From a bacterium (GTDB taxonomy: Bacteria > Caldisericota > Caldisericia > Cryosericales > Cryosericaceae): DNA of 64,000 bases. How positions within the stretch are numbered: the stretch's first letter is position 1; each line of letters begins with the position of its first letter. The stretch covers positions 124,001 through 188,000 of the forward strand of contig JAJFTL010000022.1 in assembly GCA_021373025.1 (NCBI GenBank), given 5' to 3'. The position numbers and the translations under genes are program-made. Below are positions 36,969 to 52,593 of the stretch, in pieces. Below the pieces are notes generated by a model. That model did not search any database. It was not told the DNA's origin and saw only the letters and a program-made list of their open reading frames with translations.

Positions 36969-37802
36969 TCAGCAGCCGTTCTGCTGAGGATCGACGTGCG
37001 TGGGCAACGGCTCGGTTATCGTCGGATGGTCTCCGCACACGGGACATGCCTGATCGCGTTCGATTGGCACAAGCTCAAAGCGGTTGTCCTCACCATCCAT
37101 CAAAAGCAGCTTTCCAGCTAGCCAGTCTCCATATCCAACAATGTATTTGATGACATTCTGTGCAAGAATAGAGCCGATGATGCCGGGAGTAGTGCCCAGA
37201 ATGCCGCGGGCTCGTTCCGTACGCTCCATTGTGAAAGTCGGCGCTTTGGGGTAGAGACAACGAAAGCAGGCGGTCTTCCGCGGAATGACCGTGAACGTCA
37301 TACCATACAAACTGCTCACTGCACCGATAAACAGTGGCTTGTCGAACAGTACTGCGGCATCGGAGATTAGATAGCGCGTGGCGTAATTATCCGTGGCATC
37401 GACGATCACGTCATACGCGTTGAACAGTGCATAAGCGTTGTCCGGATCAAGACGGGCAGGATACGCCTCGATTCGTACCTCTGGATTGAGTGTGAGCAAC
37501 CGGTCTCTGGCCAGAAGTGCTTTGGGCTGTCCGATATCTTTGGTGGAATATAGCGTCTGACGGTTGAGGTTGGACAGGCTGAGGGTGTCTCCGTCGACAA
37601 TTCCAAGTGTGCCTACACCCGCTGCTGCGAGGTAGAGAAGGATGGGCGAACCAAGCCCGCCAGCTCCCACGACAAGGATCGACGCCTGTGCCAGCTTGTG
37701 CTGTCCCGCAGCTCCTAATTGTTTCATCCACAGCTGGCGTTCATAACGGCTTTCCACAACCGTCTCGTGCGGACCGGAGCACGCTTGAGTAGACTTGTTC
37801 AC
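36969..37802 (-). CDS. ThiF/MoeB-type E1-like adenylyltransferase
   Basis: A 277-residue E1-like enzyme that should adenylate the C-terminus of a small ubiquitin-fold sulfur carrier (ThiS or MoaD type). The nucleotide site is VVGAGGLGSPILLYLAAAGVG, followed by DGDTLSLSNLNRQTLY with the key Arg. DATDNYATRYL is the central motif, and two CxxC pairs (CFRC and CPVC) bind zinc. It lacks a C-terminal rhodanese domain. No carrier protein, thiamine or molybdopterin gene is near. It overlaps the upstream carotenoid oxygenase gene by four bases, an unusual partner. Confidence 0.87.
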   Translation of the reverse strand: MNKSTQACSGPHETVVESRYERQLWMKQLGAAGQHKLAQASILVVGAGGLGSPILLYLAAAGVGTLGIVDGDTLSLSNLNRQTLYSTKDIGQPKALLARDRLLTLNPEVRIEAYPARLDPDNAYALFNAYDVIVDATDNYATRYLISDAAVLFDKPLFIGAVSSLYGMTFTVIPRKTACFRCLYPKAPTFTMERTERARGILGTTPGIIGSILAQNVIKYIVGYGDWLAGKLLLMDGEDNRFELVPIERDQACPVCGDHPTITEPLPTHVDPQQNGC

Positions 37803-39199
37803 TGCGTCACCTCTTTAGGAACGAAGATCGTATGCAGGCCAAAAGGCAGTGCATGTGGAAGCCAGGCACGTGCCACTTCAGTCAGTGTTTCTGCATCAAG
37901 AACGAGCACAAATGACCGCTTTGCTGCCACATCGAGAACAATGCTGAGGAGCCAGCCTTCTCCTTCCGGTGCTTCGATGCTGTTGGCAATGAAAGCTGGT
38001 GCACCTGGATAGCAGTTGTCACCCGACCATTGTATCAGTTCTCCTGTTGTGGAATTGGAACGGCACAGGCGATCAATGGGACGTCCTGTTCTCAGCGGTC
38101 CTGCAGAAAATAGAACGGTAGTCGGCTTCATCGAGAACCTTGAATCGACCTTCCAGAATTCGCCTGGAGGACACTTGAGAGGAAGGCACACGACGCTGCT
38201 GGTGCCAAGGTTGATGGTCAGGCGGGTCGCGAGAGGTGCCGGAAAATCACCGGATGGAACCTTCCCATGATTGAAGGCCAGAGCGTCCAGAATGCTGGGG
38301 TCTGCATATGCGGCAATATCTACGAGAAGTCGTTCTCCTTCTTCCCACGCATTGATGTGGTGCAGGACAAAAAGTGGACGCGTCGAAAGGGTTGTTGCCA
38401 GAACACCCGATTTTCGATCCAGGACGAATATACGCGTTCCCCTGCTTGCGTCCCAAACATAGTTATGCAGGTATGGACGCCTGCGCGATCGTAGAGAGCG
38501 GGGGTTAGCCGTGAAGGGACCTTCAACTAAAACGACCCAGTGTGCCGTGACACTGAAGGAGTGTATGTACCCCAGTCTTGAAGAGGCCACGGTACGAAGC
38601 TTTCTGGAAACGCCTTCGGCATCTGTAACTGTGATGATATAGCCAGAAGGGTCCCGTGCAGAGAGTGCGAGATCGAATCGTTCACCCGTATGCTCGTCGA
38701 AGAAGGGGTGTGGGGACGAAGCTAGGCAGTGACTCAGGTGTTTCCATGGTCTGGTCTCCCTCGTCGTCAGGGTGTCGGCGTCGACAATGACGCTCTGTGG
38801 CATGTCTCCAAGTGCCTCCAATGTGTGGCCACGGCTGATGATGTTCAAGTTGGCATTATCGCTGGAGCGATAGTTCATGTGACGTGGAATCGGCGAGTCA
38901 AACCCACCAGCAGCGAGGCTGTCCTTGATCAGTGCTCTGCGATACCAGGAGCTGGCGAGAAAGCGGTTGCTGAAGGTGACGTCCTGACCGCCAACCCTAA
39001 CTGCTGAAATCATGGCAAATCCATCCAGCCAATGGCCCACGGTCCGCGGGCCCATTTCGAATAGGGCCGGACCGATCTGATACATTGTTCCGCAGAGAGT
39101 TTCGGGGATGGTACCTGACAGCTCAAGCGGGGCATTCGATACCTCTTCGTGGAGGGAGGTAAAACCGAGACTCCATTTGGGTATTGACAGCGTGTTCAT
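37799..39199 (-). CDS. Carotenoid cleavage oxygenase (RPE65 family)
   Basis: Non-heme iron oxygenase of about 466 residues that should cleave a polyene or related alkene using O2. The four iron-binding histidines appear to be in place: SPHPFFDEHTGE, YIHSFSVTAHWVVLVEGP, FVLHHINAWEEG and LPFGLHTIFVP. The N-terminal GTMYQIGPALFEMG matches the family GxxxRxGP region with Tyr-Gln in place of the usual residues. The start is ATG 39199, six bases after a TATCAT box; a frame extension upstream covers the promoter. No carotenoid synthesis gene lies in the window, so the substrate is unknown. Confidence 0.85.
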   Translation of the reverse strand: MNTLSIPKWSLGFTSLHEEVSNAPLELSGTIPETLCGTMYQIGPALFEMGPRTVGHWLDGFAMISAVRVGGQDVTFSNRFLASSWYRRALIKDSLAAGGFDSPIPRHMNYRSSDNANLNIISRGHTLEALGDMPQSVIVDADTLTTRETRPWKHLSHCLASSPHPFFDEHTGERFDLALSARDPSGYIITVTDAEGVSRKLRTVASSRLGYIHSFSVTAHWVVLVEGPFTANPRSLRSRRRPYLHNYVWDASRGTRIFVLDRKSGVLATTLSTRPLFVLHHINAWEEGERLLVDIAAYADPSILDALAFNHGKVPSGDFPAPLATRLTINLGTSSVVCLPLKCPPGEFWKVDSRFSMKPTTVLFSAGPLRTGRPIDRLCRSNSTTGELIQWSGDNCYPGAPAFIANSIEAPEGEGWLLSIVLDVAAKRSFVLVLDAETLTEVARAWLPHALPFGLHTIFVPKEVTQ

Positions 39200-39234
39200 A
39201 AGGTCATGATATGTCAGGCAAATCAATGGCACAA
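39197..39234 (-). promoter_or_regulatory. Leaderless promoter of the carotenoid oxygenase-ThiF unit
   Basis: Minus strand: TTGTGC (39229-39234), 17 bases, TATCAT (39206-39211), six bases to ATG 39199. No Shine-Dalgarno site. Confidence 0.6.
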
Positions 39235-39265
39235 CAAGGCCGTAGTTCCACCATGCTTGTACTGC

Positions 39266-39356
39266 TGGCGGAGAGGGTGGGATTTGAACCCACGAACGAG
39301 GAAACCCCGTTACCTGCTTTCGAGGCAGGCGCTTTCAACCGCTCAGCCACCTCTCC
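39266..39356 (-). tRNA. tRNA-Ser (anticodon CGA)
   Basis: Class II tRNA of 91 nt with acceptor GGAGAGG, anticodon stem CCTGC/GCAGG around loop CTCGAAA (anticodon CGA, reads UCG), long variable arm, T-loop TTCAAAT and encoded CCA. Its first 14 bases are also the last codons and stop of tadA on the same strand. Confidence 0.96.
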
Positions 39357-39813
39357 TTGTAGATCTGACCCGTGCGAAAAATTCTTGCAGGATTGCTTTG
39401 GCATCAGCGCCCAACACCCCGGCAACGACTTCAGGAGCATACCCGAAGATTGGCCTCGTAAGCATATTGCCATTGCTGCCCACTGCCCCATTGTCAAAAT
39501 CATACGCTCCAAACACGACACGATCGACCCTGGCAAGAGCAATTGCTGCCGCACACATTGGACACGGCTCAAGCGTAACGTACACTGTGCACGCGTTCAG
39601 TCGCCAATCGTGTAGACGTTGAGCGCTGGCGCGCAACGCGAGCATCTCCGCATGAGCCGTCGGATCGTTCCTCTGCTCTCGCATATTGTGTGCAAGAGCC
39701 AGGATCTCGCCGCCCTTTGTAACAACGCACCCCACTGGAATCTCGCCTTCTTGAAGCGCACGTCTCGCCTCGTCGAGAGCACGAAGCATATAATCCGTAT
39801 CAGCAGAAGCCAT
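39343..39813 (-). CDS. tadA: tRNA-specific adenosine deaminase
   Basis: Deaminates A34 of tRNA-Arg(ACG) to inosine so that one tRNA reads CGU, CGC and CGA. It has 156 residues, the normal length. The zinc and catalytic motifs are HAEMLALRAS (His and the proton-shuttling Glu) and PCPMCAAAIALARV. The ATG is only eight bases after the CCA of tRNA-Arg(ACG), its own substrate, and there is no Shine-Dalgarno site. The last 14 bases lie inside tRNA-Ser(CGA). It is therefore expressed from a tRNA-mRNA-tRNA transcript, and cleavage of the downstream tRNA 5' end would remove its stop codon. Confidence 0.95.
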   Translation of the reverse strand: MASADTDYMLRALDEARRALQEGEIPVGCVVTKGGEILALAHNMREQRNDPTAHAEMLALRASAQRLHDWRLNACTVYVTLEPCPMCAAAIALARVDRVVFGAYDFDNGAVGSNGNMLTRPIFGYAPEVVAGVLGADAKAILQEFFARVRSTRRGG

Positions 39814-39821
39814 GTCAGGAA

Positions 39822-39898
39822 TGGTGCGCCCGACAGGAATCGAACCTGTAACCTACGGTTCCGTAGACCGTCACTCTATCCAGTTGAGCTACGGGCGC
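39822..39898 (-). tRNA. tRNA-Arg (anticodon ACG)
   Basis: A 77-nt tRNA: acceptor GCGCCCG/CGGGCGC, anticodon stem ACGGT/ACCGT around loop CTACGGA (anticodon ACG, to be edited to ICG), T-loop TTCGATT, encoded CCA. It is the standard substrate of TadA, whose gene starts eight bases downstream on the same strand. Confidence 0.97.
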
Positions 39899-39907
39899 AC
39901 AACGATG

Positions 39908-39935
39908 ATTGTATTCCATTTTCTCCAGTTAGCAA
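39908..39935 (-). promoter_or_regulatory. Promoter of the tRNA-Arg(ACG)-tadA-tRNA-Ser unit
   Basis: Minus strand: TTGCTA (39930-39935), 16 bases, TACAAT (39908-39913), nine bases before the mature tRNA 5' end. It faces away from the promoter of the flavoprotein gene. Confidence 0.62.
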
Positions 39936-39987
39936 GAAGAATAGAGCAATTCTCAGGCCAGCGTGGCCGTGGAGATGCACACAATTC

Positions 39988-40009
39988 TGGTATAATCAAC
40001 CTGCGCATG
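39988..40009 (+). promoter_or_regulatory. Extended -10, short-leader promoter of the flavoprotein gene
   Basis: TGGTATAAT (TATAAT at 39991-39996) is an extended -10 with no good -35. It lies ten bases before ATG 40007, so the leader would be about three or four bases. Confidence 0.52.
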
Positions 40010-41287
40010 AAGACAAGAGCTGACATTTGTATCATAGGTGGTGGTGCTGCCGGGATACTTGCCGGATTGTCTGCAGCACGGCGCCTCAGAGCACTGGAGT
40101 ACCCTGGGTCGACGATCATTCTCGAGCGCAATCGGCAGCTTGGGAGAAAACTGACTATCACTGGCAAGGGAAGGGCAAACGTAACGAATGCACGTACCAT
40201 CGATGAGTTTGTTGAAGCGTTCGGATCTTCGGGAAGATTCCTGTATCCTGCTTTCAAGTCGTTTTTCTCTGACGATCTCGGTGCGCTGCTGAGGGAGGCT
40301 CATCTGGAGCTCAAGACCGAGAGAGGGGGCCGCGTGTTTCCTGTCACTGGCCGAGCAGAGGATGTCGTTCAGGCTCTGGGATTGCTGCTCGCACGAGAGG
40401 CCGTTGACATGTCGTATGGAGCCAGAGTGCGGTCTGTCAGTGCCGATGCCGGCAAGTGGAAAATCGGAGTTGAATCCAGCGGATTCGTTGAGTGCTCTGC
40501 GGTCATCATGGCCACAGGAGGGAAATCGTATCCTGGCACTGGATCGACGGGAGACGGTTACCAATTTCTGGAGCACCTCGGCCATCATGCTAGTCGGCTC
40601 ACTCCTGGCCTCGTCTCACTGCACTATGCGGACCAGTGGCTAAGAGAGTTGGCAGGGGTTTCGCTTGAGGGGGTTGCTGTGGAAGCATGGAGCGGTTCCA
40701 GATGCCTGGATCGGCGACAGGGAGAGGTTATGATCACAGATCGAGGCATTGGAGGCCCTGCTGTCCTGTCTCTGAGCTTGGCAGTTACCCGTGCATTGGC
40801 TGAGGGAAAAGAAGTAGTTCTTCGCCTGGATTTGAGACCCGGGAAGACGTTTGATGCAGTGCTTCATGCCATTGAAGCCTGCGGCAATGCGGACGAAATC
40901 CGCCTGTGGCTGTTGAGATTTGTTCCTAGGAGGATGGCCGTCGGGCTGATACGTATGTGGGGCATTGAAGGAATGGACAGGGTGCCGCTGTCCAAGAAGA
41001 AACTGGCGGCAATCGCAAGCTCGATTAAAGGCATGGAGCTGGTCTGTACCGGGGCTGATCCTCTTTCGTCGGCGATCGTCACGCAGGGCGGCATTCTCCT
41101 CCAGGAGGTTGATCCAAGGACGATGGCATCAAGGCTGATGCCGGGGTTGTTCATCGCAGGCGAGCTGCTTGACCTCCAGGCCATTACGGGTGGATACAAC
41201 CTTCAGGCAGCGTTCTCCACTGGCTTCCTGGCGGGAGAGTGTGCAGCTGAATACGTTGCCAAATCGGCGAATAGCGATAGACTCTAA
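40007..41287 (+). CDS. BaiN/HI0933-family FAD-dependent oxidoreductase
   Basis: Flavoprotein of 426 residues. The N-terminal dinucleotide-binding motif [20 protein letters not shown], the [16 protein letters not shown] block, [19 protein letters not shown] and the C-terminal [27 protein letters not shown] identify the family. Its biological substrate is not established; one member has been linked to bile-acid reduction. I set the start at ATG 40007 ([12 protein letters not shown]), since the longer frame runs back through the tRNA-Arg gene. It leads the plus-strand pdxST-ruv unit, 17 bases before pdxS. Confidence 0.88.
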
Positions 41288-45803: not shown

Positions 45804-45895
45804 GGAGAGATGGCCGAGTGGCTGAAGGCACTCGCCTGCTAAGCGAGTGGGTGGTTAATACCGCCTCCCGGGTCCAAATCCCGGTCTCTCCGCCA
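45804..45895 (+). tRNA. tRNA-Ser (anticodon GCT)
   Basis: Class II tRNA of 92 nt: acceptor GGAGAGA/TCTCTCC, anticodon stem CTCGC/GCGAG with loop CTGCTAA (anticodon GCT, reads AGC/AGU), large variable arm, T-loop GTCCAAATC, encoded CCA. CoaX begins 24 bases downstream. Confidence 0.96.
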
Positions 45896-52325: not shown

Positions 52326-52593
52326 AACCGTACGCTGAGCACTTGTGGCACCGACCCCCGGCGTGGTCTGCTGTCTCGAGCTCCGGTTGCATGGTACCAC
52401 GGCACATGCTCCACTCAGTACTGTTGCTTCCTTCCGGACCTGGCAGAGTTCAGAGCTTTGCATTGCATGGAGTGCAGCCTTCAACGCTTCTGGCAGGGGC
52501 TGTTTCGGAATTCTATGCCCCGCATGCTCAGCATGGACCCCGGTAAGCGGATTCCGGGCAACAGGGCACCGCTGGCTCCCCGTCCTGTACGGC
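52326..52593 (-). ncRNA. ffs: Signal recognition particle RNA, long form with Alu domain
   Basis: Minus-strand RNA of about 268 nt. The SRP core GGTCCGGAAGGAAGCA is exact (the complement of 52425-52440). The 5' part carries the Alu-domain pattern GACGGGGAGCCAGCGGTGCC followed by CGGAATCCGCT, as in long bacterial SRP RNAs. The ends pair (GCCGTAC with GTACGGT). The Ffh partner is not in this window. This fills the 320-base gap between ispDF and the PEGA gene. The exact 3' end is inferred from pairing. Confidence 0.94.

Follow-up and report, generated by a model that had tools for sequence, protein, structure and literature searches.

The window (the whole 64,000-nucleotide stretch of DNA that was analysed) belongs to a Cryosericaceae genome of 1.6 Mb in 64 contigs and carries on its minus strand a tadA gene enclosed by two tRNA genes. 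In the direction of transcription, the locus comprises the following features:

39908..39935, minus strand: promoter-like TTGCTA-N16-TACAAT, sigma-70-like, with the second hexamer 9 nt before tRNA-Arg
39822..39898, minus strand: tRNA-Arg(ACG), a TadA substrate with encoded CCA, found by ARAGORN and Rfam, single copy
39814..39821, minus strand: gap of 8 nt between tRNA-Arg and the tadA ATG, without Shine-Dalgarno, 8 nt in every genus locus measured
39343..39813, minus strand: tadA, read as a tRNA adenosine-34 deaminase of 156 amino acids from profile matches, motifs and structural relatives
39343..39356, minus strand: 14-nt overlap of the tadA 3' end with the tRNA-Ser 5' end, the same in 13/13 genus loci
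39266..39356, minus strand: tRNA-Ser(CGA), found by ARAGORN and Rfam, single copy
37799..39199, minus strand: carotenoid-oxygenase-like (RPE65) gene 3' of tRNA-Ser, a conserved neighbour in the genus

ARAGORN and Rfam agreed on both tRNAs, confirming the minus-strand order tRNA-Arg(ACG)-tadA-tRNA-Ser(CGA) that a previous sequence-only reading had proposed. The eight bases that it counted between tRNA-Arg and tadA were also found, with the ATG 8 nt past the encoded CCA, and the promoter that it placed before the tRNA is present at 39935-39908 on the minus strand. Two features had been missed: the 14-nt overlap between tadA and tRNA-Ser, and a second A34 tRNA of the genome, tRNA-Leu(AAG). The tadA TGA (39343-39345) lies within tRNA-Ser, whose first 14 nt, GGAGAGGTGGCTGA, double as the last tadA codons and the stop, and no in-frame tadA stop was found upstream of the tRNA-Ser sequence. 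On the other side of the locus, the gene upstream of tRNA-Arg encodes an HI0933-like flavoprotein in divergent orientation, and therefore no read-through into the unit is expected from there. Every genus locus that reaches far enough has the carotenoid-oxygenase-like gene after tRNA-Ser, possibly on the same transcript as this tRNA. Elsewhere in the window, a large bacterial SRP RNA (RF01854) was found at 52328-52592 on the minus strand.

The tadA product exceeds the cut-offs of both PF14437 and PF00383, and among solved structures it is closest to tRNA adenosine deaminases of bacteria (for example, the PDB entries 7cph and 2b3j). The zinc-binding and catalytic motifs, H54-A55-E56 and P83-C84-P-M-C87, are intact and conserved in the alignment. 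The match to NCBIfam NF008113 (E=2e-39) reached 135 bits, just below the curated cut-off of 150; since this cut-off is a naming threshold and not a functional feature, the assignment was kept, and TadA is, as judged from these matches, the best reading of the gene despite that score. In the tRNA set of the genome, assembled from separate sequence stretches, two A34 tRNAs are present, the TadA substrate tRNA-Arg(ACG) and tRNA-Leu(AAG). The latter lies outside the window (G000:C36:202558-202642, equivalent to L152:359-443) and is a probable second substrate, TadA being described in PMC8266599 as producing I34 in both tRNA-Arg and tRNA-Leu. The sequence-only reading had asked whether further tRNA-Arg(ACG) genes exist, and the gene proved to be single-copy in the genome; apparent extra copies in the related genomes G010, G011 and G014 are contig-end overlaps with the tadA locus (138, 138 and 94 nt, respectively). 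CGN codons are also served by tRNA-Arg(TCG) and tRNA-Arg(CCG).

The elements TTGC and TACAATC of the promoter-like site before tRNA-Arg are invariant in 14/14 aligned genus copies (TTGC(T/C)A overall), in contrast to a divergent spacer and upstream DNA. Neither a terminator-like site (38900 to 40300) nor a conserved promoter before tRNA-Ser was found, so that the locus has the sequence features expected of a tRNA-mRNA transcription unit: its genes share a strand, a single conserved promoter-like site precedes the leading tRNA, and no terminator-like site separates them. The sequence-only reading had inferred that enzyme and substrate are made from one transcript, and the sole conserved promoter-like site before tRNA-Arg, the 8-nt gap and the divergent upstream gene support it: tRNA-Arg(ACG) and tadA are very likely co-transcribed. 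Separate transcription of tadA would instead require an internal promoter, for which the minus strand offers one other promoter-like match, at 39818-39790. However, 0.9 such matches are expected by chance per region, relatives do not preserve its second hexamer, GATTAT, and the tadA start codon would fall within the promoter. This candidate was rejected, and we regard transcription of tadA on its own as very improbable.

The very short leader predicted for tadA also stands, at 8 nt and without a Shine-Dalgarno site. Pairing at the tadA start amounts to -2.5 kcal/mol and so is at background level (median -2.8), and in 69% of the long ORFs of the window a Shine-Dalgarno site reaches -5 or better at one or another early start codon, a generous figure because it takes the best of several start codons per ORF. 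RNA folding of both tRNA/tadA junctions detected nothing except the tRNAs themselves (z about -0.8). The sequence of tadA shows no evident promoter, leader or Shine-Dalgarno site of its own, and the position of its stop codon inside tRNA-Ser bears at least as much on its expression as the short leader does.

We then compared the locus across 49 genomes of the class, sorted into the groups f1 to f6 of the genome search, where f1 is the genus of the window. The tRNA-Arg(ACG) gene adjoins tadA in 15/15 genus genomes, which answers in the affirmative the check on relatives suggested by the sequence-only reading, and the combination of an 8-nt gap and a 14-nt overlap recurs in all 13 genus loci with both sides visible. 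In family f4, tRNA-Arg(ACG) is directly upstream of tadA and on its strand in 5/5 cases (gap of 9 nt in four and 28 nt in one) and the overlap with tRNA-Ser is absent. Families f2, f3 and f5 have tRNA-Arg(ACG) located away from tadA; the 14-nt overlap with tRNA-Ser(CGA) is found there in 5/5 loci of f2, 4/7 of f3 and one locus of f5. A pair tRNA-Ser(GCT)-tRNA-Arg(ACG) persists in f2, separate from tadA. The separation of tadA from tRNA-Arg(ACG) in these three families, together with its not being detected in several f3 genomes, indicates that the linkage is not required.

The overlap itself can be accounted for without any regulatory meaning: in a small genome tadA may have landed between two tRNAs, with which it shares a transcript, and have dropped its own promoter and stop because the flanking tRNAs supplied both. 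The GGCTGAG of tRNA-Ser gives an in-frame TGA to any gene reading into it, and most Caldisericota loci, whose tRNA-Ser has that TGA, show an overlap of 14 nt. In G048, tRNA-Ser reads CGA where the others have TGA, and the overlap is 22 nt because the frame runs past this codon to the next stop. The variation of overlap lengths by lineage (14, 22, 24 and 47 nt when other phyla are included) and the fact that tRNA-Ser(CGA) is no TadA substrate fit such packing as well. We consider this explanation possible but, given the recurrence in other phyla described below, not the probable one.

Outside Caldisericota we collected 209 loci, mostly from the best-scoring matches per sample; the counts include related genomes, which are not independent of each other, and the start codons used are predictions. 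In a diverse set of 79 loci, tRNA-Arg(ACG) lies upstream of tadA in 3 and tRNA-Arg(CCT) in 7, the latter from Clostridia and further Bacillota; downstream, 17 loci have tRNA-Ser(CGA). Focused sampling found tRNA-Arg(ACG) within 250 nt upstream in 13/70 Planctomycetota and 9/30 Elusimicrobiota loci, and in 30/30 loci of Poribacteria, 28 of which also have tRNA-Ser(CGA) downstream. Across the 209 loci the orientation is uniform, with 55 sense and no antisense cases for the upstream tRNA-Arg(ACG), and 73 and none for the downstream tRNA-Ser(CGA). This sense-only recurrence and the 15/15 genus pairs argue that the arrangement is more than chance. The planctomycete locus L232 has the complete form, with a gap of 5 nt and an overlap of 24 nt; tadA/tRNA-Ser overlaps in Planctomycetota measure 14, 22, 24 and 47 nt and one Poribacteria locus has 22 nt, although most loci of other phyla lack the overlap. 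Parsimony on a rough TadA tree required 15 changes of the upstream state, and therefore gains or losses of the tRNA-Arg/tadA pair have been frequent; for a correlation of the upstream tRNA-Arg with the downstream tRNA-Ser, the same tree offers few independent pairs.

Several of these loci deserve a separate description. In the Planctomycetota loci L228 and L249, the tadA frame enters tRNA-Ser by 47 nt and passes the anticodon loop before reaching a stop. In the Elusimicrobiota locus L289, the 3' end of tadA (about 1934-1947, tadA orientation) reads GGAGGAGTGGCTGA, resembling the start of a broken tRNA-Ser, and an intact tRNA-Ser(CGA) comes 161 nt further on. Four Clostridia loci (L040, L042, L057 and L101) have tRNA-Arg(CCT), no substrate of TadA, 14-40 nt upstream of tadA. 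The Poribacteria loci L358-L385 present a larger conserved cluster, tRNA-Ser(GCT)-tRNA-Arg(ACG)-tadA-tRNA-Ser(CGA)-tRNA-Ala(CGC). Its first four members and the tRNA-Ser(GCT)-tRNA-Arg(ACG) pair of f2 would fit an old cluster that is breaking up, and the arrangement in the window resembles the final, compacted form of an older neighbourhood common to other phyla. The window also contains a tRNA-Ser(GCT), at 45804-45895 on the plus strand, 6 kb from tadA and on the opposite strand; the Poribacteria cluster has this tRNA in front of tRNA-Arg(ACG), and the copy in the window is perhaps left over from the older cluster.

The distribution of the pair weighs on both sides of the question of why tadA is kept next to its substrate. 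The sequence-only reading had proposed that the amounts of enzyme and substrate are linked; under such dosage coupling, selection would hold tadA by tRNA-Arg(ACG) and editing capacity would track the substrate. Clostridia aside, nearly every locus with an upstream tRNA has tRNA-Arg(ACG) as the nearest one, and in E. coli there is competition between tRNA-Arg2 and mRNAs for TadA, tRNA-Arg2 abundance altering the TadA free for mRNA editing (PMC13170351), which makes the enzyme-substrate question worth testing. On the other hand, Clostridia carry tRNA-Arg(CCT) in this place, three of the five Caldisericota families that have tadA show no linkage, the second A34 tRNA, tRNA-Leu(AAG), is elsewhere in the genome, and an enzyme and its substrate need no stoichiometry. 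The downstream tRNA-Ser(CGA), equally conserved, is no TadA substrate. The association of tadA with its substrate tRNA-Arg(ACG) is strong, yet tRNA-Ser(CGA), which TadA does not edit, is found beside tadA no less commonly; this and tRNA-Leu(AAG) leave dosage coupling as one rival among others, and we think it unlikely. The same data count against mere packing: the tRNA-Arg(ACG)/tadA pair occurs in at least 4 phyla, genomes as large as 4-6 Mb included, and the partner is nearly always the substrate tRNA, whereas packing by itself would not single out one tRNA among about 46.

A neighbourhood recurring in several distant phyla suggests that TadA production is tied to tRNA processing. The interpretation that we consider probable is a conserved tRNA-mRNA transcription unit, promoter-tRNA-Arg(ACG)-tadA-tRNA-Ser(CGA), in which tRNA processing would limit the TadA message. 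The tRNA-Arg promoter would drive the entire unit, and a single transcript would hold the substrate tRNA of TadA, the TadA message and the second tRNA, with the message trimmed on both sides by maturation of the two tRNAs. Processing of the tRNA-Arg 3' end would leave tadA with a leader of at most 8 nt. RNase P cleaves at the 5' end of tRNAs, and a complete tadA message necessarily contains the first 14 nt of tRNA-Ser; with the stop inside this tRNA, cleavage at 39356/39357 would remove the stop codon and yield a predicted nonstop message. Each transcript would therefore provide a mature tRNA-Ser or an intact message for tadA, never both. The main templates for TadA synthesis would be precursors that have escaped processing, or else nonstop messages rescued by tmRNA, for which the genome has a gene. 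A truncated TadA would miss only its last few residues, past the conserved C-terminal FF..R, so that rescue tagging and not loss of the fold would decide its fate. In this way TadA would be kept low under a strong tRNA promoter, its output tied to tRNA synthesis and processing. We favour a real effect of the overlap on TadA output over neutral packing. A more elaborate version, which we find quite doubtful, gives the two tRNAs a regulatory role at either end of the tadA message, as its leader and its tail: TadA would bind its unprocessed substrate tRNA just upstream of the start, RNase P would choose between tRNA-Ser and a stop-bearing message, and TadA would be auto-regulated through tRNA maturation.

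Parts of this arrangement have counterparts in known systems. In the E. coli thrU-tyrU-glyT-thrT-tufB operon, too, a translation gene shares its transcript with tRNAs (as predicted in our case), and tRNA processing parts them. Its mRNA has a normal leader and stop, unlike the tadA unit with its 8-nt gap, a stop inside the downstream tRNA and a protein that modifies the upstream tRNA. In the selC and pylT clusters a tRNA gene also adjoins the gene of an enzyme acting on that tRNA. Those dedicated enzymes serve special amino acids and dedicated tRNAs, whereas TadA, a general enzyme, probably has a second substrate in this genome, and its linkage across relatives is complete in the genus (15/15) and Poribacteria (30/30) and lost or absent in f2, f3 and f5. 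Mitochondrial tRNA-punctuated genes, whose stop codons can be overlapping or incomplete, resemble the proposed unit in that tRNA processing sets the mRNA ends, sometimes at the stop. Polyadenylation completes the mitochondrial stops; a bacterial message cut before its stop would, by contrast, be a nonstop message.

E. coli TadA and B. subtilis YaaJ are the same enzyme with the same tRNA-Arg substrate, and the accessible parts of the two sources describe no tRNA-embedded tadA for either species, unlike the locus of the window, and place scr-dnaX after yaaJ in B. subtilis (PMC13170351, PMC10454642). A search of the open-access literature, a coverage that leaves out most subscription journals, found no description of a tadA-tRNA unit or a tadA/tRNA overlap. 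The proposed transcription unit is of a known kind, its overlap of coding sequence and tRNA is unusual, and the recurrent enzyme-substrate pairing was not found described. What it adds is a gene-level link, present in several phyla, between an RNA-modifying enzyme and its substrate tRNA, as well as a case in bacteria of a protein-coding gene with its stop codon inside a tRNA, retained in most families of the class that have tadA. The overlap allows a direct test of how cells settle tRNA maturation versus translation of the overlapping message. In addition, annotation pipelines that bar overlaps between coding sequences and tRNAs may truncate or miss tadA in such genomes.

Finally, TadA was not detected in 12 of the 49 class genomes (G024, G028, G032, G034, G035, G037, G040, G041, G043, G044, G045 and G047), 9 of which keep a tRNA-Arg(ACG)-like gene. 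A tadA remnant near the tRNAs of G028 and G032 was considered and rejected, since the weak tblastn matches lie in a urocanate-hydratase-like ORF or are noise. G028, a single contig of 1,558,103 bases, has tRNA-Arg(ACG), (TCG) and (CCG), and a tRNA-Leu(GAG) that stands in for the tRNA-Leu(AAG) of the window's genome. These TadA-less genomes probably decode with unmodified A34; they resemble the Mollicutes described in PMC3711424 and are likewise comparable to B. subtilis, where yaaJ is dispensable (PMC10454642).
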